60,485 bases of DNA, from NCBI GenBank assembly GCA_029263175.1, contig JAJCXZ010000075.1:1-60485 (forward strand). Reading direction: 5' to 3'. The DNA is from Acidimicrobiales bacterium (lineage in GTDB: Bacteria; Actinomycetota; Acidimicrobiia; Acidimicrobiales; Aldehydirespiratoraceae). The translations under genes were made by a program, and so were the position numbers. The notes under the pieces are model-generated. The model ran no database searches and was not told the origin of the DNA. It worked only from the letters and a program-made list of their open reading frames with translations. Shown piece by piece: positions 3,778 through 37,932 of this stretch; the first letter of the stretch is position 1; every line of letters begins with the position of its first letter.

Positions 3778-4791
3778 TTAGGCCAGTGCGCTGCAGACGG
3801 TGTTGGTCAGCAACGTCGACAGGACATACGGGTCGGCGTTGGCGTTCGGGCGACGATCCTCGATGTAACCCTTGCCGTCCTGCGCGACCTGCCACGGGAT
3901 GCGGATCGAGGCACCACGATCAGAGACGCCGTAGCTGAACTGGTCGAAACGCTGGGTCTCGTGAGCGCCGGTGAGGCGGTCCTCGATACCGACGCCGTAA
4001 CCCTCGAGGTGGCGTTCCGGCACACCCAGGGCACCCATCGCCTCGCACGCTGCGATGATGGATTCGTAGTTCTCACGCATCGCCCTGGTGGAGAAATTGG
4101 TGTGCATGCCGGCGCCGTTCCAGTCACCCTTCATCGGCTTGGCCTCGATGCTCACCTCGACGTTGTGCTCCTCCGCCAGACGGAAGAGAAGGTAGCGGGC
4201 AACCCACATGTGGTCGCCGACGGCGACCGTGTCTGCCGGGCCGATCTGGAACTCCCACTGACCGGGCATGACCTCGGCGTTGGTGCCAGAGATGGCGAGG
4301 CCGGCATCCATGCAGGCCTTCGTGTGCTCCTCGATGAGGTCACGGCCGTGGATCTTGAGCGCGCCGACGCCGCAGTAGTACGGGCCCTGGGGCGCCGGGA
4401 ATCCGTTGTTCGGAAAGCCGGCGGGCCAACCGGTGGCCGGGTTGATCAGCGTGTACTCCTGCTCCAGACCGAACCACGGTTCCTGGTCGCCGTACTTCTC
4501 GAGCGCGGCGCGGGCGCCCGCACGAGTGTTGGTGGGGTGGGGCGAGAGGTCAGCGGTGAGTGCCGTCTCGCAGAGGACGAGGATGTCGTTGCCGCCGCGA
4601 ATCGGGTCAGGGCACTGGAAAACCGGCTGGAGAACAACGTCGGAGTTGTCGCCAGTGGCCTGGTTGGTGCTGGAGCCGTCGTAGCCCCAGACGCCGGGCT
4701 CGTCGCCGTCGGCCAGGATCTTGGTCTTGGAGCGGATCTCGGCCGTCGGCACACTGCCGTCGATCCACAGGTACTCAGCCCGGTAGGCCAT
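3778..4791 (-). CDS. glnII: Glutamine synthetase type II (GSII, eukaryotic-like)
   Basis: Makes glutamine from glutamate, ammonia and ATP. The 337-residue length fits GSII rather than the 440-470-residue GSI. GSII features are visible: the N-terminus MAYRAEYLWIDGS, WGYDGSSTNQA, WFGLEQEYTL with metal-binding glutamates, the GDWNGAGMHTNFSTR loop and the DRGASIRIPWQV substrate/ATP region. GSII occurs in Streptomyces, Frankia and rhizobia beside GSI and is usually induced by nitrogen limitation. It is divergent from a GSI gene and the shared 230-bp region carries an 11-bp direct repeat. ATG at 4791 begins the conserved sequence. There is no clear Shine-Dalgarno sequence and no TAnnnT box next to the start. 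Confidence 0.94.
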   Translation of the reverse strand: MAYRAEYLWIDGSVPTAEIRSKTKILADGDEPGVWGYDGSSTNQATGDNSDVVLQPVFQCPDPIRGGNDILVLCETALTADLSPHPTNTRAGARAALEKYGDQEPWFGLEQEYTLINPATGWPAGFPNNGFPAPQGPYYCGVGALKIHGRDLIEEHTKACMDAGLAISGTNAEVMPGQWEFQIGPADTVAVGDHMWVARYLLFRLAEEHNVEVSIEAKPMKGDWNGAGMHTNFSTRAMRENYESIIAACEAMGALGVPERHLEGYGVGIEDRLTGAHETQRFDQFSYGVSDRGASIRIPWQVAQDGKGYIEDRRPNANADPYVLSTLLTNTVCSALA

Positions 4792-4901
4792 GGTGTTCTC
4801 AATCCTTGTTCGTTGCCCGCATCGCGGGAGTGTCGTCGCGCGCCAGTCTGGCGGTTCGGGGGCCATGGTTCCAAGACGGAATTTCAGTGCTGTTGCTCAT
4901 T

Positions 4902-4923
4902 TGTGAACGGAGTGTGAACGCAC
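4902..4923. promoter_or_regulatory. 11-bp direct repeat, likely OmpR-family (GlnR/PhoP-type) operator
   Basis: TGTGAACG occurs at 4902-4909 and again at 4913-4920, exactly 11 bp apart, on one face of the helix. On the minus strand the units read GTTCACA, close to the GTTCA-containing direct-repeat units bound by streptomycete PhoP; GlnR also uses 11-bp half-sites. It lies between two divergent glutamine synthetase genes, so nitrogen or phosphate control is a reasonable inference. Confidence 0.5.
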
Positions 4924-5021
4924 CCCATCGACCCTTCGCACAGGCTGAGATGCGCGGCAACCTGGGAATCGGTCGCCCGCCCGGGCAAACTTGTTTGACG
5001 GCAATCACCGATGGAGCCGAG

Positions 5022-6359
5022 ATGTCACGTGAACAGGAATACGTGCTGCGAACCGTCGAGGAACGCGGCGTTCGACTGATCCGTCTCTGGTTCACTGACG
5101 TGCTCGGCAAGCTCAAGTCGGTCGCTATTTCGCCCGCGGAGCTCGAGGCTGCGTTCACCGACGGCGTGCAGTTCGACGGCACCGCGATCGACGGCTTCTC
5201 CCGCATCCACGAATCCGACGTGCTCGCCCGCCCCGACGCCACCACGTTTGAGTTGTTGCCATGGGCGAAGGACGACGAGCCGTCCGGTCGAATGTTCTGC
5301 AACATCGCCAACCTCGACGGCTCGCCGTTCGAGGGCGATCCTCGTCAGATTCTGCGCCGCAATCTCGACAAGGCCCGCGCGGCGGGCTATTCCTTCTTCG
5401 CTGCCCCCGAAGCCGAGTTCTTCTACTTCGCGTCGGGCGATTCGGCCGACGGACCTCCGCAACCTCTCGATCACGCCGGCTACTTCGACCTCACCACCGG
5501 CGACGTCTCGAGTGATCTTCGCAAGCGCACGATCCACATGATCGAGGCGATGGGCATTCCGGTGGAGTACTCCTTCCACGAGGACAGCCCAAGCCAACAC
5601 GAGATCGATCTGCGCTACACCGAAGCGCTCGACATGGCTGACAACGTGATGACGCTGCGTCTCGTCGTCAAGAAGATCGCCATGGAACGAGGCGTCTACG
5701 CCACGTTCATGCCCAAGCCGCTCAATGGTGTGCAGGGTTCGGGCATGCACACCCACCTGTCGCTTTTCGAGGGCGAGACGAACGTCTTCCACGATCCCGA
5801 CGACAAGTATGGGATGTCGACTACGGCCAAGCAGTTCACTGCGGGAATCCTGCGTCACGCCCGCGAGATCACCGCGGTCACCAACCAGCTCGTCAACAGC
5901 TACAAGCGGTTCGCAGAGAAGTCCGAAGCGCCGCCCTACGTTTCGTGGGCCCGCAACAATCGCTCGGCGCTCGTGCGTGTGCCCGTCCGCAAACAGGGCA
6001 AGCCCGAGTCCGCCCGGATCGAGTATCGAGCTCTCGATGGCGCGTGCAATCCGTATCTCGCATATTCGATGCTGCTCGCCGCCGGCCTTCGCGGGATCGA
6101 GGACGGCTATGAACTGCCGCCGGAAACGAACGTCAACCTGTTCGAGCTGACCGACAGCGAGCGCCATGAGATCGGCGTCGAGCCGCTGCCGCGCTCACTC
6201 GACGAGGCGCTCGACGTGATGGAGGAATCCAAACTCGCCCGAGACACTCTCGGAGACCACGTCTTCGAGTGGTTCCTGCGCAACAAACGCGCCGAGTGGG
6301 CCGAATTCTGCGCCCACGTCACACCCTTCGAACTCGACCGGTACCTCTCGAGCTGGTGA
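5022..6359 (+). CDS. glnA: Glutamine synthetase type I, short GlnA2-like form
   Basis: ATP-dependent glutamate-ammonia ligase or a related gamma-glutamyl ligase. The 445-residue protein starts MSREQEYVLRTVEERGVRLI and continues RLWFTDVLGKLKSVAI, very like the actinobacterial GlnA2 group. Other GSI motifs are FDGTAIDGFSRIHESD, the metal-binding APEAEFFYF, GSGMHTHLSLF, NSYKRFAEKSEAPPYVSWA and the arginine-rich RIEYRALDGACNPYLAYS. No adenylylation-type KLYDLPPEE tyrosine motif is visible near the C-terminus, so control by adenylylation looks unlikely. The GGAG at about 5013 supports the ATG at 5022. It is followed after 4 nt by an OmpR-family regulator, and is divergent from the GSII gene. Confidence 0.93.
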   Translation: MSREQEYVLRTVEERGVRLIRLWFTDVLGKLKSVAISPAELEAAFTDGVQFDGTAIDGFSRIHESDVLARPDATTFELLPWAKDDEPSGRMFCNIANLDGSPFEGDPRQILRRNLDKARAAGYSFFAAPEAEFFYFASGDSADGPPQPLDHAGYFDLTTGDVSSDLRKRTIHMIEAMGIPVEYSFHEDSPSQHEIDLRYTEALDMADNVMTLRLVVKKIAMERGVYATFMPKPLNGVQGSGMHTHLSLFEGETNVFHDPDDKYGMSTTAKQFTAGILRHAREITAVTNQLVNSYKRFAEKSEAPPYVSWARNNRSALVRVPVRKQGKPESARIEYRALDGACNPYLAYSMLLAAGLRGIEDGYELPPETNVNLFELTDSERHEIGVEPLPRSLDEALDVMEESKLARDTLGDHVFEWFLRNKRAEWAEFCAHVTPFELDRYLSSW

Positions 6360-6363
6360 CCTG

Positions 6364-7041
6364 ATGGACCCTCTGCTCGTCCACCCCGACCCGGCCCCGC
6401 CGGAGTTGGTCCAGGCGCTCGATATGGGCGGCTGGGCCTGGAAGGGGGCGTCCGATGTCGACGCCGCCCGCAGGGACGAGCCGGCCGACGGCTGGGTCGG
6501 CGCGGTCATCGTCGCCGGAAGCGACTCGGAGGAGGCGTTCCGTTTCTGCCGTGCGATCCGGTCCGGAGACGTCAACGTCGACTCCGTCCTGCTGCTCATC
6601 GGCGGCGGCCAGCTGGCTTCGTTGGACTTTCGTGAGGACCTGTTCGACGACTTCTGCCTCTACCCGTTCCACCCTGTGGAGTTGGAGGCGCGGCTCAAGC
6701 ACCAATTCCGCCGGTCAGGACAGATCGCACGCGCCGAGGTCATCGAATACGGCCCACTGGCGATGAACCTGGAGACGTACCAGGCCCTGATCGAGGGCAA
6801 GCCGCTTGACCTCACCTACATGGAGTACGAGCTGTTGAAGTTCCTGGCGTCGCATCCCGGCAAGGTCTTCACCCGCGAGACGTTGCTCAGCCGGGTCTGG
6901 GGCTACGACTACTACGGTGGCGCCCGCACCGTCGACGTCCACGTGCGACGCCTGCGCGCCAAACTCGGCGAGGAGCACGCCAACCTCATCCAGACGGTGC
7001 GGTCGGTCGGCTACAGCTTCGGCGCCTCCCGCTGGGCCTAG
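6364..7041 (+). CDS. GlnR-like OmpR-family regulator with degenerate receiver
   Basis: A 225-residue DNA-binding regulator. The C-terminal half (about 125-222) is a full winged helix: YGPLAMNLETYQALIEGKPL, DLTYMEYELLKFLASHPGKV, SRVWGYDYYGGARTVDVHV and RRLRAKLG, then TVRSVGYSF. This is very close to streptomycete and mycobacterial GlnR. The first 110 residues have the receiver layout, but the usual phospho-acceptor strand reads AVIVAGSD with no Asp at the expected place, and the conserved Lys before Pro-Phe is a Tyr (LYPFHP). It is therefore probably controlled without phosphorylation, as known for GlnR. Position 4 nt after the glutamine synthetase supports a role in nitrogen regulation. Confidence 0.85.
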   Translation: MDPLLVHPDPAPPELVQALDMGGWAWKGASDVDAARRDEPADGWVGAVIVAGSDSEEAFRFCRAIRSGDVNVDSVLLLIGGGQLASLDFREDLFDDFCLYPFHPVELEARLKHQFRRSGQIARAEVIEYGPLAMNLETYQALIEGKPLDLTYMEYELLKFLASHPGKVFTRETLLSRVWGYDYYGGARTVDVHVRRLRAKLGEEHANLIQTVRSVGYSFGASRWA

Positions 7042-8484: not shown

Positions 8485-8829
8485 TCAGATGGTGGCGACT
8501 GCCTCGATTTCGATCTGAGCGCCGAGCGGAAGCTTGGCTACAGCCACCGCGGAACGAGCGGGACGGTGGTCGCCGAACTCCTCCATGTAGATGTCGTTCA
8601 TGACGGCGTAGTCGTCCATGTCGACGAGGAAGACGGTGGTCTTGACGACGTCGGCAAGTGAGGCGTTGGCCGACGAGAGCACGCCACGCAGGTTGACGAA
8701 GACCTGCCGGAGCTGGGCCTCCACTCCGCCCTCGACGATCGCACCATCAGCTATGCCGATCTGACCGGAAGTGAAGAGTAGATCGCCGCCACGGACGATG
8801 GGTGTGTAAGGACCGACTGGCTTGCTCAT
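8485..8829 (-). CDS. RidA/YjgF/YER057c/UK114 family protein
   Basis: Probable enamine/imine deaminase that clears reactive intermediates released by PLP enzymes. The 114-residue length is typical of the trimeric RidA fold. Visible family features are MSKPVGPYTPIVRGGDLLFT, SGQIG, the QLRQVFVNLRGVL helix, KTTVFLVDMDDYAVMN and the C-terminal RPARSAVAVAKLPLGAQIEI, whose first Arg-Ala-Arg contains the substrate-binding arginine. ATG at 8829 is supported by TAGGGT 7 nt upstream. It runs in the same direction as the upstream Fe-S/Mo fusion, whose stop is 59 nt away. Confidence 0.9.
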   Translation of the reverse strand: MSKPVGPYTPIVRGGDLLFTSGQIGIADGAIVEGGVEAQLRQVFVNLRGVLSSANASLADVVKTTVFLVDMDDYAVMNDIYMEEFGDHRPARSAVAVAKLPLGAQIEIEAVATI

Positions 8830-8888
8830 GGGCGTCACCCTAACTCCAGCCATCGCTTCACCCCGCACAGCCTCGTGCTCCCGTCCGG

Positions 8889-10433
8889 TTAGCCTGTCGG
8901 CCAGTCCTGCGGACAGCCCCTTGCGAGCCACGCGGCTGCGGCGACTGCAGCCATGACGGCGTCACTGCCGTTGACAGGCTGACCGTCGTCGGGCTCGATC
9001 GTGATGTTGATCGTCGGCGTCTCGACGGCGCGCAGGATGCCGAACGAGCGCACCGTGAGATCGTGGATGACCCCATCCGCGTCGACACCAAGCGACTCGC
9101 TCGTGACGAGCCCGAGGCCCATGTGGGCGGCGCCGATGCAGTAGCTGCGCAGAATTGTCTCATCGAGAGGAGCACCACACCGAACGTTCACGGCGATCGA
9201 GCCGTCCGCCGCGACCGCGGCCGTGGCCGAGCCGCCTCCAGGCGACGTGATCCAGCCGACTTCTCCTCGAAGACCGGCTGACAAGACCGCCATCTCCAGC
9301 CACCCGGCGCCACGTATGGCGGCAGATGTCCGCGGCCCGGGCACGTCGACCTCCTCGACATCGAGCCCAGACGCGGCTGCGGCTATCACGTCGGCTATGC
9401 CAGCGGTACGCGCGACTCGGACGAGGCCGGTGCCATCCGCCCGCACGCCGGCTGCGAGCGGCGGACGCTTCGGTCCACGGCGAACCACGTCCTCACGGGA
9501 GTAGAGCACTCGGACGGCGTGGCCGTGGTCGTCGGCCAGCCGTCGAGCCACCGCACCGACATCTGAATCGACCTTGCCGCCGAAGGCCCCACCGTTCTCC
9601 AGCGGAGACACCGGTTGACCTCCGGGAAGGCACCAGGCTGCGTCGGTTTCGAGATAGCCGGGTTCGGTCCAGGTCGTACGCAACGTCTGGACCCAATCGC
9701 CTTCGGGCATTTCAATCGGCGGAGAGAATTCAGCGGTCGTGCGGCGGCCCTGAACCTTGCCGGCGAGGCGTAGCGCTTCGGCACGGGTCCCAGCGACGAC
9801 CCACTCCTCCGTTGACGTGTCGAGAGCGGCAACCAACGCACCGGCGGGAGCGGTGTCGTCGGAGAATCCACCTCGACCGATCGCAACGTCGGATGCGGTC
9901 GACTGGGCTGACCCACCTTCGAGTTCGGCTCGGTGAGACGCGCCTGCGGAGCGAAGGACCCGAGTTGCGGTCGGGAAGGCCACCCAGGCATCAACGACCG
10001 GCTGCCATCCGGTGCAGCGGCACATGTGCGCGAGCAGCGCATCGGCGGCGGCGTCACGGTCGTCGTGGCTCGCACCGCGGGACCGAAGGCCCTCGAAACG
10101 GCAGATGATTCCTGGCGTGCAGAAGCCGCACTGACTACCGCCGGTCTCAGCGAAGGCATTGATCCAACGAGCGACGTCACCCGTGGCAATGCCGTCGACT
10201 GTCGTGATCTCGCGTCCGCGCACCCGGCGAACTGGAGTCACACACGACACTCGAGGCTGGCCATCGACGAGGACAGTGCAGCAGCCGCACTGACCCTGCG
10301 GCGAGCATCCGTCCTTCACCGAGGTCTTGCCTGCAGCCCGGAGCACATCGAGCAGTGTCGACGTCTCGTCATCGACGCCGACGAGCTCGCCGTCGACGGT
10401 GATCTCGAGAGAACGGTGCGCGTCAATTGCCAT
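8889..10433 (-). CDS. Fusion of a [2Fe-2S] subunit with a shortened molybdopterin-binding domain (xanthine dehydrogenase family)
   Basis: The 514-residue protein starts with a complete CoxS-type iron-sulfur unit: plant-type ferredoxin cysteines at 43, 49, 52 and 64 (GCSPQGQCGCC) and the second cluster with QCGFC at 102-105 and MCRC at 138-140. From about 200 onward it resembles a molybdenum-hydroxylase large subunit, including YLETDAAW, GGAFGGK (281-287) and a RGAG-like AAIRGAGWLEMAV. This part is only about 300 residues against roughly 750 in normal enzymes, and the usual GxGE catalytic glutamate near the C-terminus is not recognisable (NGSDAVMAA instead). It may be an inactive or reshaped family member. 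The ATG at 10433 has TAACCT 7 nt upstream. Confidence 0.82.
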   Translation of the reverse strand: MAIDAHRSLEITVDGELVGVDDETSTLLDVLRAAGKTSVKDGCSPQGQCGCCTVLVDGQPRVSCVTPVRRVRGREITTVDGIATGDVARWINAFAETGGSQCGFCTPGIICRFEGLRSRGASHDDRDAAADALLAHMCRCTGWQPVVDAWVAFPTATRVLRSAGASHRAELEGGSAQSTASDVAIGRGGFSDDTAPAGALVAALDTSTEEWVVAGTRAEALRLAGKVQGRRTTAEFSPPIEMPEGDWVQTLRTTWTEPGYLETDAAWCLPGGQPVSPLENGGAFGGKVDSDVGAVARRLADDHGHAVRVLYSREDVVRRGPKRPPLAAGVRADGTGLVRVARTAGIADVIAAAASGLDVEEVDVPGPRTSAAIRGAGWLEMAVLSAGLRGEVGWITSPGGGSATAAVAADGSIAVNVRCGAPLDETILRSYCIGAAHMGLGLVTSESLGVDADGVIHDLTVRSFGILRAVETPTINITIEPDDGQPVNGSDAVMAAVAAAAWLARGCPQDWPTG

Positions 10434-10440
10434 TGCGGGG

Positions 10441-10450
10441 AGGTTACGGT
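10441..10450. promoter_or_regulatory. Overlapping divergent -10 boxes
   Basis: Reading right to left, TAACCT (10446-10441) is 7 nt before the ATG at 10433. Reading left to right, TACGGT (10445-10450) is 8 nt before the ATG at 10459. The two boxes overlap by two bases, so polymerase binding for the two genes should be mutually exclusive. Confidence 0.55.
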
Positions 10451-10458
10451 CGCTGTCC

Positions 10459-11349
10459 ATGAGTCACGTAGATCGACGCACCTTCCTGGTGGGATCCGCC
10501 ACGATCGCCCTCGCCACCGCTTGTGGCGGCACCAGCACCGATGCTGCCGTCAACACCACGGGAGAAGCTTCGTCCGCGCCTGAGTTCCTGGTGGTGCGGT
10601 TCCCTGATGGTTACCGCGCTACCTCGACGATGATCGCCGGAGTCGAACAGCGCATGCCGTTCGCGGTCGCTGATTCGATCGACATCATGCGAGAGGGTGC
10701 GCCTGACCGCCTCACGTTCCTGATCACTCAGGGCGAGACGGTCGTCACGCAAACCTCGGTCGAGGCGCACCGTGAGGGCATCATCACGCCGTACTACCCG
10801 GTGAAAGTGACGTTCCCCGAGGCAGGCGCCTACGCCGTGTCGCTCGCCGACTACCCCGACATCGCATCGGCCGACATCCTGATCGCCGACGCCAGCGAGG
10901 TCTCGCTGCTACAGCCGGGCGACAGCCTTCCCGCTGTCGGCACGCCGACGCTCGCCGACAGCCGCGGCGTCGTCGACATCTGTACTCGCGCAATCGAGTG
11001 CCCGTTCCACGACCACAATCTCGTTGACGTGCTCGCCAACGGCAGACCGACCGTGTTGCTCATCGCCACGCCGGGCTTCTGTCAGACCGACATCTGCGGC
11101 CCGGTCGTCGATCTCCTCATCGAGGAGTCGCCGAGCTACGAGGGAATCGACTTCATCCACGCCGAGGTCTATGTCGACCCATCGGCGTTCGAAGGTGGCG
11201 GGTTCCCCGACACCTCACCCATCGTGTCGACGCTCGGGCTCCCCTACGAGCCCATCTTGTTCGCGGCGAACGGCAACGGCGAAGTCGTTACTCGACTCGA
11301 TCTCGCATGGGACCGCTCCGAACTGAACGAGGCGATCGCGACGCTCTAG
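10459..11349 (+). CDS. Tat-exported lipoprotein with thioredoxin-like C-terminal domain
   Basis: A 296-residue protein. The N-terminus MSHVDRRTFLVGSATIALAT has a twin-arginine signal, followed by ACGG, a lipobox cysteine, so it is predicted to be a folded, Tat-exported outer-face lipoprotein. A beta-rich middle part (about 45-165) is followed by a thioredoxin-fold domain with the paired cysteines in TPGFCQTDICGPVVDLL (C-x4-C). The spacing differs from the C-x2-C of thioredoxin and C-x3-C of Sco proteins, so substrate and redox partner are unknown. ATG at 10459 is preceded by TACGGT with an 8-nt gap. Divergence from the Fe-S/Mo fusion may be only a shared promoter. Confidence 0.8.
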   Translation: MSHVDRRTFLVGSATIALATACGGTSTDAAVNTTGEASSAPEFLVVRFPDGYRATSTMIAGVEQRMPFAVADSIDIMREGAPDRLTFLITQGETVVTQTSVEAHREGIITPYYPVKVTFPEAGAYAVSLADYPDIASADILIADASEVSLLQPGDSLPAVGTPTLADSRGVVDICTRAIECPFHDHNLVDVLANGRPTVLLIATPGFCQTDICGPVVDLLIEESPSYEGIDFIHAEVYVDPSAFEGGGFPDTSPIVSTLGLPYEPILFAANGNGEVVTRLDLAWDRSELNEAIATL

Positions 11350-11388: not shown

Positions 11389-11709
11389 CTAGCTGAACGA
11401 CGAACCGCAGCCGCAGGTGCGCTGGGCGTTGGGGTTGTCGATCGAGAAGCCGGCGTCCTGGAGTCCATCTTTGTAATCGAGGGTTGCACCCTCGAGAAGC
11501 TGAGCGGACGACGGGTCGACAACGACGCCGACACCGTTGTAGTCGGCGATGAGATCTTCGGAGTCACGGTCCGTGTCGAAGAACATTTCGTAGGAAAATC
11601 CGCTGCAACCACCAGGGCGAACGGCGACGCGAAGGGCAAGGCCTTCTTCGCCTTCAGCGCTGATGAGTTCGCCAACCTTGCCTACGGCACGATCTGTAAG
11701 GGTGATCAT
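11389..11709 (-). CDS. A-type iron-sulfur cluster assembly protein (IscA/ErpA/SufA family)
   Basis: Carries or delivers [Fe-S] clusters to apo-proteins. The 106-residue protein has the three conserved cysteines: Cys35 in RPGGCSGFSYEM and Cys99/Cys101 in RTCGCGSSF. The N-terminus MITLTDRAVGKV is typical. A GGAG Shine-Dalgarno sequence precedes the ATG at 11709. It is divergent from an Mrp/NBP35-type Fe-S carrier ATPase, which supports a local role in cluster assembly. Actinobacterial single-copy proteins of this type are closest to ErpA, but subtype cannot be set without alignment. Confidence 0.93.
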   Translation of the reverse strand: MITLTDRAVGKVGELISAEGEEGLALRVAVRPGGCSGFSYEMFFDTDRDSEDLIADYNGVGVVVDPSSAQLLEGATLDYKDGLQDAGFSIDNPNAQRTCGCGSSFS

Positions 11710-11795: not shown

Positions 11796-12974
11796 GTGGC
11801 TCACATCGCACCTCCAACGACCGAGCACGTCATGGGGCTTCTGCGCGGCGTCATCGACCCAGAACTCGGGTCCGACATCGTAGAACTCGGCATGGCCAAA
11901 GGCGCCCAGGTCAGCGATGACGGCGTTGTTGTGCTCGAAATCGCCCTCACCACATCAGGGTGCCCGCTGCGCGCGCAGATCCAAAAGGACATTCGCAGCC
12001 GCATCACGACTCTCCCCGGCGTGACCCGAGTGAAGATCAACTGGGGCGAACTCACACAGGACGAACGCACCGAAGCAATGTCGAAAGCTCGCTTCAATGT
12101 CAGCCAGGACGCCCCTGATACCGCGATCCCACCCACTACCAAAGTGTTGATGATCGCGTCGGGCAAAGGCGGTGTCGGCAAGTCCTCGATCACCACGAAC
12201 CTCGCCGCGGCGCTTGCCGAGAAGGGCTACGCCGTTGGCGTGATGGACGCCGACATCTGGGGCTTCTCGGTCCCTCGCATGCTCGGCGTCGAAGGCGACC
12301 TGCTGTCGATCGAAGGCAAGATTCAACCGCTCGTCCGCAAGATCGGCGAGGGTCGACTCGAGATTGTCTCGATGGGGTTCCTGGTCGCCCAGGAGGACTC
12401 GGCGCTCATGTGGCGCGGACTCATGCTCAACCGAGCGGTCCAACACTTCTGCCAGGACGTCGCCTGGTCCGAAGACCTCGACTATCTCCTGATCGACATG
12501 CCACCGGGCACCGGCGATGTCCAGATGGGTCTCGCCAAGATGTTGCCGCGAGCCGAGATGGTGATCATCACCACACCTGCGCTCAACGCGCAGAAGGTCG
12601 CCGCCCGCGTCGCCGACATGGGCCGCAAGAATTACCTCCGCATCGTCGGCGTCATCGAGAACATGACCGAGTTCGTGGCCCCTGACGGATCGCGTCATGC
12701 ACTCTTCGGTGCCGGCGGCGGCCAACAACTCGCCGACGACATCGGCGCTCCCCTTCTCGGCAGCGTCCCCATCGAGCCGCTGGTCAGCAAAGGCGGCGAT
12801 ACCGGCGAGCCAGCGTCGCTCGGCGAAGGTGCCGCCGCCGACACGCTGCGAAGCATCGCCGCCGCGATCGCTGAGGAGTACGTGCCGCCGATCGAAATGG
12901 CCGGCTGCAGCGCCCGAATGCTCGACGCTGCCATGGCCGCCCTCGACGAACTCGACCTCAACGAATCGGCCTAG
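11796..12974 (+). CDS. Mrp/NBP35 (ApbC)-family P-loop ATPase with N-terminal DUF59 domain
   Basis: Iron-sulfur cluster carrier ATPase. The 392-residue protein has a DUF59/MIP18 domain at about 8-90 with TTSGCPLRAQI, then a Mrp ATPase domain with the deviant Walker A SGKGGVGKSS at 122-131, DADIWGFSVPRML and LLIDMPPGTGD. The CxxC pair that bridges clusters in many Mrp proteins is not seen after ENMTEFV; a single Cys lies in EMAGCSARM. GTG at 11796 is chosen because TAAGCT lies 6 nt upstream. It is divergent from the A-type Fe-S protein, and a B-type palindrome abuts its stop codon. Confidence 0.92.
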   Translation: MAHIAPPTTEHVMGLLRGVIDPELGSDIVELGMAKGAQVSDDGVVVLEIALTTSGCPLRAQIQKDIRSRITTLPGVTRVKINWGELTQDERTEAMSKARFNVSQDAPDTAIPPTTKVLMIASGKGGVGKSSITTNLAAALAEKGYAVGVMDADIWGFSVPRMLGVEGDLLSIEGKIQPLVRKIGEGRLEIVSMGFLVAQEDSALMWRGLMLNRAVQHFCQDVAWSEDLDYLLIDMPPGTGDVQMGLAKMLPRAEMVIITTPALNAQKVAARVADMGRKNYLRIVGVIENMTEFVAPDGSRHALFGAGGGQQLADDIGAPLLGSVPIEPLVSKGGDTGEPASLGEGAAADTLRSIAAAIAEEYVPPIEMAGCSARMLDAAMAALDELDLNESA

Positions 12975-35664: not shown

Positions 35665-37932
35665 TTAGGGGTTCATTGCGTTCCAGACCCGAGCGGGGGT
35701 AGTGGGCATCTCGACGTGGCGCACACCGAGGTGTGACAGCGCGTCGACCACCGCGTTGTGGACGGCCGGCCCGGCGCCGATTGTGCCGGCTTCACCGATG
35801 CCCTTCGCGCCGAGGGGGTTGCGGTTCGTGGGGGTCTCCATGGCGATGCGTTCGAAGCTCGGAACCTCGGCCGCCGATGTGAAGGCGTAGTCCATGAAGT
35901 TGCCGGTGAGCGGGTTGCCCTCGTCGTCGTACACGAACTCCTCCATCAACGTGTGCGCGATGCCGGAAGCGACGCCGCCGTGAACCTGCCCATCGAAGAT
36001 GAGCGGGTTGACGATCGTGCCCGCGTCGTCACAGGCGATGTGACGAAGGACGGTGACCTCGCCGGTATCCCGGTCGATCTCCACGACCGACAGGTGGGCG
36101 CCGAACGGGAAGGTGGCCCCCGTCGGTTGGAAGTCGGTTTCGGCCTTGAGTAGGTCGCCACCGGCCTCGATTTGGGAGGCCACCTCGGCCCAGGTCTTGC
36201 TGATCGATGGTGACCCCGTGACGGCGAAGACGCCAGACGCGACGTCGAGGACGATGTCGGCGGGGTTGGCTTCGAGCAGATCAGCCGCCGCGTTGCGGGC
36301 CTGATTGACGACGAGTTCACTGGCCTCGTGCACGGCTGAGCCGCCGACCTGTAGCGAGCGCGAGCCGCCGGTGCCGCCACCGCGGGCCACCTCGTCGGTG
36401 TCGCCATGGCGCACCTCGATCTTGTCGAACGGGATTCCGGTGACGTCGGCCGCCAGCTGGGCGAATGCCGTGTGGTGGCCCTGGCCGTGCGAGGACGACC
36501 CGGTCAGCACGAGCGCAGAACCATCGGGGCGCACCTCCATGCTGCCAAACTCGCTGGCGCTCATCGGGTTGGTGACCTCCACATAGGTCGACCAGCCGAG
36601 GCCGAGCAGCTTAGCGGTGGGGTCCTCACGACGTCGCTGCTGTTCGGCCCGAAGCCCGTGATAGTCAGCCGCCTCGATCACGAGATCCATGGCCTTGGCG
36701 TACTCACCGCTATCCATCTCGGCACCGGTTTGCGTCTTCAGCGGGAATGCCTCGGGCGGAATGAAGTTGACGCGGCGAACCTCAGCCGGGTCGATGCCGA
36801 TCTCCATCGCGAAGAGATCAAGGATCCGTTCGAGCGGTGTCGTGGCTTCAGGTCGGCCGGCTCCGCGGTAGGCGCCGATCGGCGACGTGTTGGTGACCAC
36901 GGAGTTGGACTGGAAATCGAGCTTCTCGATGGCGTACACGCCGAGAGCCATGATCCGGGTGAACATGGGAAGCACACATCCGATAGTGGGGTAGGCACCA
37001 CCGTCCTGGATGAGATCGATCTTGTAGGTCGAGATCTTGCCGTCTCGAGAGCCGCCCATCTTCAGCTGATACGTCACGGCGCGGGCGTGGGCGAGAGCGA
37101 GCATGCTCTCGGAGCGAGTCTCGGTCCATCGCACGGGTCGACCGAGTTCGCGGCCAACCGCAGCCAACACCATGTCTTCGGGGTAGGCCCCGTTTTTGCC
37201 GCCGAACCCGCCGCCGACATCAGGTGTGATGACATGGACGTCATCGAGCTCGACCCCCATGCCCTTGGCCAGTTCTTCTTTGGTGCGGTGCGGAAACTGG
37301 GTGCAGGCCCACTGGGTGAGCCGTATGCGGCCGTCGGCGTTGGGAGCCCACACCGACACCGCGGATCGAGGTTCCATCGGGGCGACAGACATCCGCGGGT
37401 TGCGCATCTCCAACTCGACGACAACGGCGCAATCATCGAACATCTCAGCGGAGCCGCCGGAGGGCTGCTGCCATGCCAAGTTGGTGCCGGCCGCGGGAAA
37501 GAGCAGCACCTTGTCCTTGATCGACTCGCGCATGTCGACCACCGCGTCGAGCGGTTCGTAGTCGACGAAGACCATCTCCGCGGCATCGACACCCTGGGCC
37601 CGGGTTTCGCTGACGACGGCCGCTATCGGCTCGCCCACGAAGCGAACCCGGTCAGAAGCGAGCCAGGTGCGCAACATGGCCTGGTTCAACATCGGCATGC
37701 CCGGAGGGCGAGCCTCAAGCCCGAGATTGGCAGCGGTGAACACGCCGACGACACCAGGCATTTCGAGCGCGTCTTCCGTCTCGATGCTCAGGATCTCGGC
37801 GTGGGCCATGAGTGAACGAACGAACGTCACGTGGAGCGCATCGGCGGGGCCGACGTCGGCCACGTACTTACCGCCGACGGTGAGGAAGTCAGGATCTTCC
37901 TTACGGATGACGCGGTTGCCAATCATGCTCAT
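35665..37932 (-). CDS. Molybdenum hydroxylase large subunit (CoxL-like, form II/aldehyde oxidase type)
   Basis: A 755-residue molybdopterin-cytosine-dinucleotide-binding subunit. It has GGGFGGK at 240-246, AYRGAGRPEA and the catalytic glutamate motif GAKGIGEAG near the C-terminus. The AYRGAGR loop marks form II (BMS-type) proteins; true form I CO dehydrogenases have AYxCSFR, so CO oxidation is not supported. Normal partners, the FAD-binding medium and [2Fe-2S] small subunits, are not adjacent on either side. Start could be 37932 or, two codons later, 37926; no strong ribosome-binding site is seen. The substrate, perhaps an aldehyde or N-heterocycle, is unknown. Confidence 0.88.
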   Translation of the reverse strand: MSMIGNRVIRKEDPDFLTVGGKYVADVGPADALHVTFVRSLMAHAEILSIETEDALEMPGVVGVFTAANLGLEARPPGMPMLNQAMLRTWLASDRVRFVGEPIAAVVSETRAQGVDAAEMVFVDYEPLDAVVDMRESIKDKVLLFPAAGTNLAWQQPSGGSAEMFDDCAVVVELEMRNPRMSVAPMEPRSAVSVWAPNADGRIRLTQWACTQFPHRTKEELAKGMGVELDDVHVITPDVGGGFGGKNGAYPEDMVLAAVGRELGRPVRWTETRSESMLALAHARAVTYQLKMGGSRDGKISTYKIDLIQDGGAYPTIGCVLPMFTRIMALGVYAIEKLDFQSNSVVTNTSPIGAYRGAGRPEATTPLERILDLFAMEIGIDPAEVRRVNFIPPEAFPLKTQTGAEMDSGEYAKAMDLVIEAADYHGLRAEQQRRREDPTAKLLGLGWSTYVEVTNPMSASEFGSMEVRPDGSALVLTGSSSHGQGHHTAFAQLAADVTGIPFDKIEVRHGDTDEVARGGGTGGSRSLQVGGSAVHEASELVVNQARNAAADLLEANPADIVLDVASGVFAVTGSPSISKTWAEVASQIEAGGDLLKAETDFQPTGATFPFGAHLSVVEIDRDTGEVTVLRHIACDDAGTIVNPLIFDGQVHGGVASGIAHTLMEEFVYDDEGNPLTGNFMDYAFTSAAEVPSFERIAMETPTNRNPLGAKGIGEAGTIGAGPAVHNAVVDALSHLGVRHVEMPTTPARVWNAMNP

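Follow-up and report, generated by a model that had tools for sequence, protein, structure and literature searches.

A shrunken molybdenum hydroxylase-like protein conserved in Acidimicrobiia may be a two-[2Fe-2S] redox protein free of molybdenum cofactor

Results

An intact Fe-S unit fused to a shrunken large-subunit-like region

The window, the whole 60,485-nucleotide stretch of Acidimicrobiales DNA that was analysed, contains a minus-strand gene (8889..10460) for a compact protein of 523 residues, defined by its ORF translation, its orthologues and a structural model, in which two [2Fe-2S] domains are followed by a region resembling the large subunit of molybdenum hydroxylases. On balance this protein is probably a pseudo-hydroxylase free of molybdenum cofactor (Moco) that derives from a fused enzyme of the TIGR03311 type and is now a two-[2Fe-2S] redox protein. 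The weight given to the Moco-free reading relative to its rivals rests mainly on the segments that are missing from the protein.

An inner ATG at 10433, taken as the start in the first-pass annotation, is an alternative start of the ORF, and residues 1–15 of the longer product have a pLDDT below 50 in the AlphaFold2 model. The N-terminal plant-ferredoxin-type [2Fe-2S] domain (residues 18–86; 10203..10409, minus strand, as for all features of this gene) contains the cysteines C52, C58, C61 and C73, while the second [2Fe-2S] domain, Fer2_2 (residues 87–158; 9987..10202), contains C111, C114, C147 and C149. Both domains score above their Pfam cut-offs (Fer2 25.9 bits, Fer2_2 61.4 bits), confirming the intact Fe-S unit claimed in the first-pass annotation. 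The large-subunit-like region (residues 170–523; 8892..9953) is predicted to adopt a xanthine-oxidase-family fold from which segments are missing. The two motifs previously reported to remain there were recovered, GGAFGGK at residues 290–296 (9573..9593) and RGAG at residues 383–386 (9303..9314), the latter lying opposite RGFG of the fused parent in the alignment. The family motif NGSD (residues 497–500; 8961..8972) stands at the start of the last helix (499–513).

Profile matches to the catalytic domains are weak. MoCoBD_1 scored 16.5 bits over 52 residues and MoCoBD_2 18.9 bits over 55 residues, both against a Pfam cut-off of 27, and the hammerhead domain PF01315 is absent from the Pfam matches of the protein. 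The top NCBIfam model, TIGR03311, reached 126.8 bits against a cut-off of 830.45, and no model dedicated to the compact family was found among the Pfam or NCBIfam matches. When the single sequence was searched against the PDB, the top-scoring stretch in each match listed was the Fe-S part. The region after the Fe-S unit comprises ∼354 residues. Its counterpart in L123, the closest full-length relative (864 codons), has ∼700, and a canonical large subunit encoded elsewhere in the window has 755. The shortening proposed from the initial inspection is thus real; the remaining length is about half, and not clearly less than half, of the normal one. The canonical molybdenum large subunit (35665..37932, minus strand, 755 residues) is complete and retains GIGE; its best NCBIfam models, glyceraldehyde and CO dehydrogenase, fall below cut-off.

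The AlphaFold2 model of the compact protein has a pLDDT of 93.1 and a pTM of 0.92. Foldseek ranks two aldehyde oxidoreductases from Desulfovibrio first (E values of 8.2e-21 and 8.7e-19) but superposes the whole chains poorly (TM by query 0.50 and 0.66, rmsd 14.3 and 11.7 Å). For the D. gigas enzyme, 1sij (TM 0.50 by query, 14.3 Å by Foldseek), the good fit is the gapped alignment produced by VIA-align, which re-examines the Foldseek matches (Z 23.4, 475 residues, 2.9 Å). By the same method bovine xanthine dehydrogenase, 3bdj, aligned over 478 residues at 2.8 Å (Z 24.3), and the 50 chains listed gave Z values of 16.2–24.7 over 322–478 residues. In the model, the xanthine-oxidase fold seems to be kept even though about half of the large-subunit region is gone.

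Segments missing from the compact form

At least 90% of the 79 aligned compact sequences lack, among others, residues 206–233, 256–274, 316–343, 381–400, 500–516, 574–659 and 666–755 of L123, blocks whose exact borders depend on the alignment. The motifs MGQG and TTGSR lie inside the last two of these blocks (86 and 90 residues); a complete MoCoBD_1 or MoCoBD_2 domain carrying these motifs is not present in the compact form. In known enzymes these two segments presumably cradle the pterin, while GGAFGGK and the arginine corresponding to R383, we assume, face the Moco. Three further parental positions, Phe525, Gln529 and Gln769, are aligned with Ala385, Glu389 and Tyr440 of the compact protein.

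The loop before the last helix, which in the parent carries the catalytic Glu (GVGE), is shortened in all seven alignments made of this region. As the whole-profile hhalign alignment ended at residue 357, the C-terminal part was aligned separately. Six alignments (three hhalign, three MAFFT) place the parental Glu in a gap, and the seventh places it opposite Ala501, next to D500; in none of the seven is it opposite Asp500 of NGSD, the loop alignment itself being uncertain by a few residues. D500 occupies the first turn of the last helix in the AlphaFold2 model. A one-for-one Glu-to-Asp exchange is thereby rejected. The first-pass annotation had NGSD replacing the GxGE motif; the loop has been shortened and not directly swapped. 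Nor does a catalytic Glu reappear at a shifted place within that loop; by sequence, E389, D467 and D500 remain candidate bases. In xanthine oxidoreductase this Glu acts as the base, according to the accessible part of the source (PMC3624778), and in mouse AOX1 the exchange of Glu1265 for Gln (E1265Q) gives an inactive enzyme (PMC2671166, as excerpted).

Conserved residues

Conservation was assessed in an alignment of 79 compact sequences, comprising the window sequence and 78 of the 80 best orthologous loci; L049, with a stop at residue 4 of its match, and L116, with one at residue 42, were excluded. A second, smaller alignment held 22 of the 78 loci plus the window sequence. All eight cysteines (C52, C58, C61, C73, C111, C114, C147 and C149) are invariant in 79/79 sequences. 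Their equivalents, read from phmmer alignments to 1rm6 and 1sij, are taken to be the cluster ligands in those proteins. Also invariant are G291, F293, G294, K296, K331–P334, A385, G386, E389, Y440 and H446. Position 295 of GGAFGGK is Gly in 41, Ala in 32 and Ser in six of the 79 sequences, and the residues of NGSD are conserved in 75 (N497), 72 (G498), 78 (S499) and 78 (D500).

By our own count, 73 positions are at least 95% conserved without being plain invariant residues of the parent. Of these, 56 depart from the parental consensus, 47 lying within the large-subunit-like part; the 56 include G238–R239 of GRRTT, W276–C277, E389, Y440 and S499–D500 of NGSD. As the compact protein thus has 56 conserved positions of its own, unlike the parental consensus, its decay is improbable.

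Kinship with fused and separate hydroxylase subunits

Six fused full-length relatives (L122–L127) comprise 864–879 codons, start codons not being fixed. The three that were scanned scored 777–791 bits against nearly the whole of TIGR03311, a model of selenium-dependent xanthine dehydrogenase, just below its cut-off of 830.45. A tree of the Fe-S domains was built from 24 rows, namely 12 of the 79 compact sequences, the six fused relatives and six proteins of the window's own genome, with L008 left out. All 12 compact rows cluster together (100/100). A wider group (100/100) unites them with the six fused relatives and with L002, a row from the own genome; five CoxS-like proteins of the same genome stand apart from it. 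The order among the fused rows is not settled in the tree, so that 'derived from' rather than 'sister to' is our interpretation of this kinship.

The TIGR03311-like fused proteins likewise carry an Fe-S unit and a large-subunit region in one chain and share with the compact form the signature KDGC(S/A)P.GQCGCCTV. They possess MGQG, TTGSR and the catalytic-Glu loop, however; the compact protein has lost the first two and has a shortened version of the loop. The Desulfovibrio aldehyde oxidoreductase (MOP, 1sij/1dgj), the cofactor of which is MCD, resembles the compact protein in fold (predicted here), in domain order, in its two [2Fe-2S] domains and in having no FAD domain, and differs in length (906–907 residues versus 523). 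Glu869 of MOP binds near the Mo, as stated in the accessible text of PMC10223205. Small Fe-S subunits of the CoxS/XdhC type also have two [2Fe-2S] domains, and those of the same genome share 35–40% identity with the compact protein. In contrast to the fused compact gene, however, they stand alone beside separate Mo and FAD subunits; the compact gene also occurs in genomes without matches to such partners.

Distribution and selection

Among 61 genomes (the window's own included), 45 contain a one-piece, near-full-length orthologue with 56–100% identity. In three of the 45 (G018, G020 and G024) one stop codon lies inside the match, that of G018 (the locus L049) at residue 4. Three genomes (G009, G037 and G060) yielded fragments only. 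In G033, G044 and G055 the orthologue matches in pieces within a single open frame, which suggests inserted linkers. Across the class, a match at E≤1e-60 was obtained in 97 of 296 genomes, a count that includes fragments and genomes from other orders; in G290, one of these genomes, the match is to a fused full-length protein. At the level of the phylum 18 of 396 genomes match with the full profile, and again 18 with a profile of residues 170–523, all being the own genome or members of the same family, order or class. The weakest best match among the 18 with the latter profile (E 1.6e-89) lies far from the limit of 1e-20, showing that the distribution has a sharp edge. Beyond the phylum the survey consisted of a named-genome scan, from which the best 80 of 576 confirmed loci (54–83% identity) were used. 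These 80 are labelled Acidimicrobiia, its members or, more broadly, Actinomycetota, except L087, L111 and L109. The latter loci are labelled Acidobacteria, Terriglobia and Bifidobacterium breve, respectively; both the locus and its neighbours are Acidimicrobiia-like in each case, and the bins are possibly mislabelled.

Comparison with L009, L010 and L011 (L011 and L038 being one contig) gave dN/dS values, rough as dS exceeds 1, of 0.04–0.08 for the Fe-S part and 0.08–0.10 for the remainder. Judged from these sequence comparisons (dN/dS 0.04–0.10), both halves of the gene are under purifying selection. The occurrence of equally short orthologues in 45/61 genomes, together with these dN/dS values, shows that the compact form is more than chance. 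The first-pass annotation had considered that full-length orthologues would indicate a local deletion; the orthologues are instead just as short. Equally short orthologues and strong selection rule out both a local deletion and a pseudogene.

Genomes without canonical hydroxylase parts

Ten of the 61 genomes have no MoCoBD_2 match. In seven of them the compact gene is present (only as a fragment in G037; the others are G039, G044, G045, G047, G055 and G059), while G051, G056 and G058 have neither. In none of the seven carriers was there a match to XdhC_CoxI (PF02625) or an above-cut-off match to FAD_binding_5, G039 showing one weak match to the latter. G046, which also lacks a PF02625 match, resembles the seven except for a single weak match to MoCoBD_2 (E 3.5e-4); in all eight genomes tested, the seven carriers and G046, FAD_binding_5 is absent or below cut-off. 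The seven are drafts of 84–97% completeness, in which genes may be missed; the joint absence of three families in all of them nevertheless appears hard to put down to assembly gaps alone.

Chaperones of the XdhC type are usually needed by this enzyme family, according to the available portion of PMC2997495. The absence of XdhC is an imperfect sign, however, since G005 matches MoCoBD_2 eight times yet lacks an XdhC match, and a Sulfolobus control matched MoCoBD_2 and FAD_binding_5, again without XdhC. MoaC was found in 60/61 genomes, including the seven carriers. Moco is therefore probably available in these organisms, and its availability does not discriminate on whether the compact protein needs it.

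Gene neighbourhood

Directly downstream of the compact gene is a RidA/YjgF-type gene (8485..8853, minus strand, start uncertain; Pfam Ribonuc_L-PSP). Upstream, on the same strand as the compact gene, lies a gene for an A-type Fe-S carrier of the ErpA/IscA kind (11389..11709, minus strand; Pfam Fe-S_biosyn), from which a gene for an Mrp/NBP35-type Fe-S carrier ATPase diverges (11796..12974, plus strand). A further divergent gene (10459..11349, plus strand), whose start codon and that of the compact ORF overlap, encodes a protein with a CQTDICGP motif. By eye this protein has a twin-arginine-like signal, with Pfam TAT_signal below cut-off; it gave no Pfam match above cut-off and no sequence match in the PDB. 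Its homologue is present in 49 of the 80 orthologous loci, and a CxxxxCGP pattern in 43.

The ErpA-like gene lies upstream on the same strand in 71/80 loci (within 150 bases in 17, and with its match end more than 800 bases away in 51 of the 71), and RidA downstream on the same strand in 63/80 (within 150 bases in 54), distances being measured between match ends and not gene ends. The compact gene stands between the two in 58/80 loci, and Mrp diverges from the ErpA-like gene in 62/62 loci containing both. All counts out of 80 are lower bounds because some loci are cut by contig ends. The arrangement Mrp/ErpA/compact/RidA recurs in L129, L131 and L133, from the same taxonomic order, and in both stretches from outside that order, L130 and L132.

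Twelve stretches without the compact gene were examined, out of 17 genomes taken. The ErpA-like gene is directly beside RidA in six (L163, L168, L169, L172, L173 and L174) and ∼1 kb from it in two (L167 and L170), while in four (L164, L165, L166 and L171) a RidA match near the ErpA-like gene is missing. The adjacency in 6/12 shows that the ErpA–RidA pairing can do without the compact gene. Genes farther out, for a response regulator and glutamine-synthetase-like proteins, are often conserved as well (55, 51 and 40 of the 80 loci), and the adjacency to ErpA and RidA is thus weak functional evidence that may reflect general conservation of gene order. Within the window, positions 3778–7041 hold two different glutamine-synthetase-like genes (identified by eye) facing apart, followed by a gene with a Trans_reg_C domain.

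Discussion

We infer that the compact protein has lost Moco, and likewise the direction of descent, electron transfer, a partner for it and a link to ErpA and RidA. A fused xanthine dehydrogenase-like enzyme of the TIGR03311 kind would have been duplicated in Acidimicrobiia, and one copy would have lost the putative molybdopterin-cradling segments and the catalytic-Glu loop. The shortened copy may then have been kept on its own as a redox protein whose two [2Fe-2S] clusters would pass electrons to and from a putative partner, the shrunken domain being a scaffold or docking surface and no longer an active site. Electron transfer with the shrunken domain as scaffold is the most economical role. 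The position between the genes for an A-type carrier and RidA suggests a function in Fe-S or amino-acid/imine redox homeostasis, with the A-type carrier perhaps the source of the protein's clusters; such a role alongside the ErpA-like carrier and RidA is a plausible hypothesis. Of the functions initially proposed for this protein, a pseudoenzyme or electron-transfer protein fits best, an assembly factor is disfavoured and a minimal hydroxylase is unlikely.

A minimal hydroxylase would bind Moco or some smaller pterin differently from known enzymes, with D500, E389 or D467 as its base. The retention of GGAFGGK and RGAG, the conservation of D500 in 78/79 sequences, MoaC in 60/61 genomes and the 56 positions conserved unlike the parent, which imply that some site is under selection, all accord with this, and G005 and the Sulfolobus control indicate that canonical enzymes are possible without an XdhC match. 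We nevertheless consider it unlikely, given the loss of the MGQG and TTGSR segments, the shortened GVGE loop, the alignment of the parental Phe525, Gln529 and Gln769 with Ala385, Glu389 and Tyr440, the seven host genomes without XdhC or above-cut-off FAD-subunit matches, and the inactivity of the Glu1265-to-Gln mutant of AOX1 in the excerpted PMC2671166. A slimmer chance is that the domain has been reshaped to form a new site for a ligand or cofactor, which would make the protein a new class of [2Fe-2S] redox enzyme on the xanthine-oxidase fold, handling reactive imines or Fe-S damage together with ErpA and RidA.

About as doubtful as a minimal hydroxylase is the idea that the protein assembles, stores or senses Fe-S clusters in concert with the A-type carrier and Mrp, using its hydroxylase-like domain as a docking platform. 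Besides the conserved neighbourhood with the ErpA-like gene and Mrp, it can draw on a possible shared-operon logic, as the accessible part of a study of a Pseudomonas strain without RidA names IscS as a target of 2-aminoacrylate damage (PMC9239102). The cluster domains, however, are of the electron-transfer type found in hydroxylases, the ErpA–RidA pair remains where the compact gene is absent, and ordinary conservation of gene order accounts equally well for the adjacency. Common ancestry and fold could point to an accessory protein that assists canonical enzymes of the xanthine-oxidase family in assembly or electron transfer, a proposal rendered highly improbable by strong counter-evidence, the gene being kept in seven genomes (once as a fragment) without MoCoBD_2, XdhC or above-cut-off FAD-subunit matches. 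That the gene is a decaying remnant, or an artefact of assembly or local deletion, has the reduced length as its one argument and a negligible probability, refuted as it is by the same compact form in many genomes of the class, purifying selection on both halves and a confidently predicted fold.

We found no description of a conserved lineage of shrunken molybdenum hydroxylases among the listed titles and abstract beginnings of open-access papers, a search largely outside subscription journals. If the reading as a Moco-free redox protein is right, compact genes of this kind are not to be tallied as xanthine or CO dehydrogenases in metagenomes. In many members of the class Acidimicrobiia a metabolic enzyme seems to have become a redox protein of a different kind, which would be the descendant of a large metalloenzyme that retained its electron wiring while dropping its catalytic cofactor, and would make it possible to test cleanly which parts of the fold Moco binding requires.
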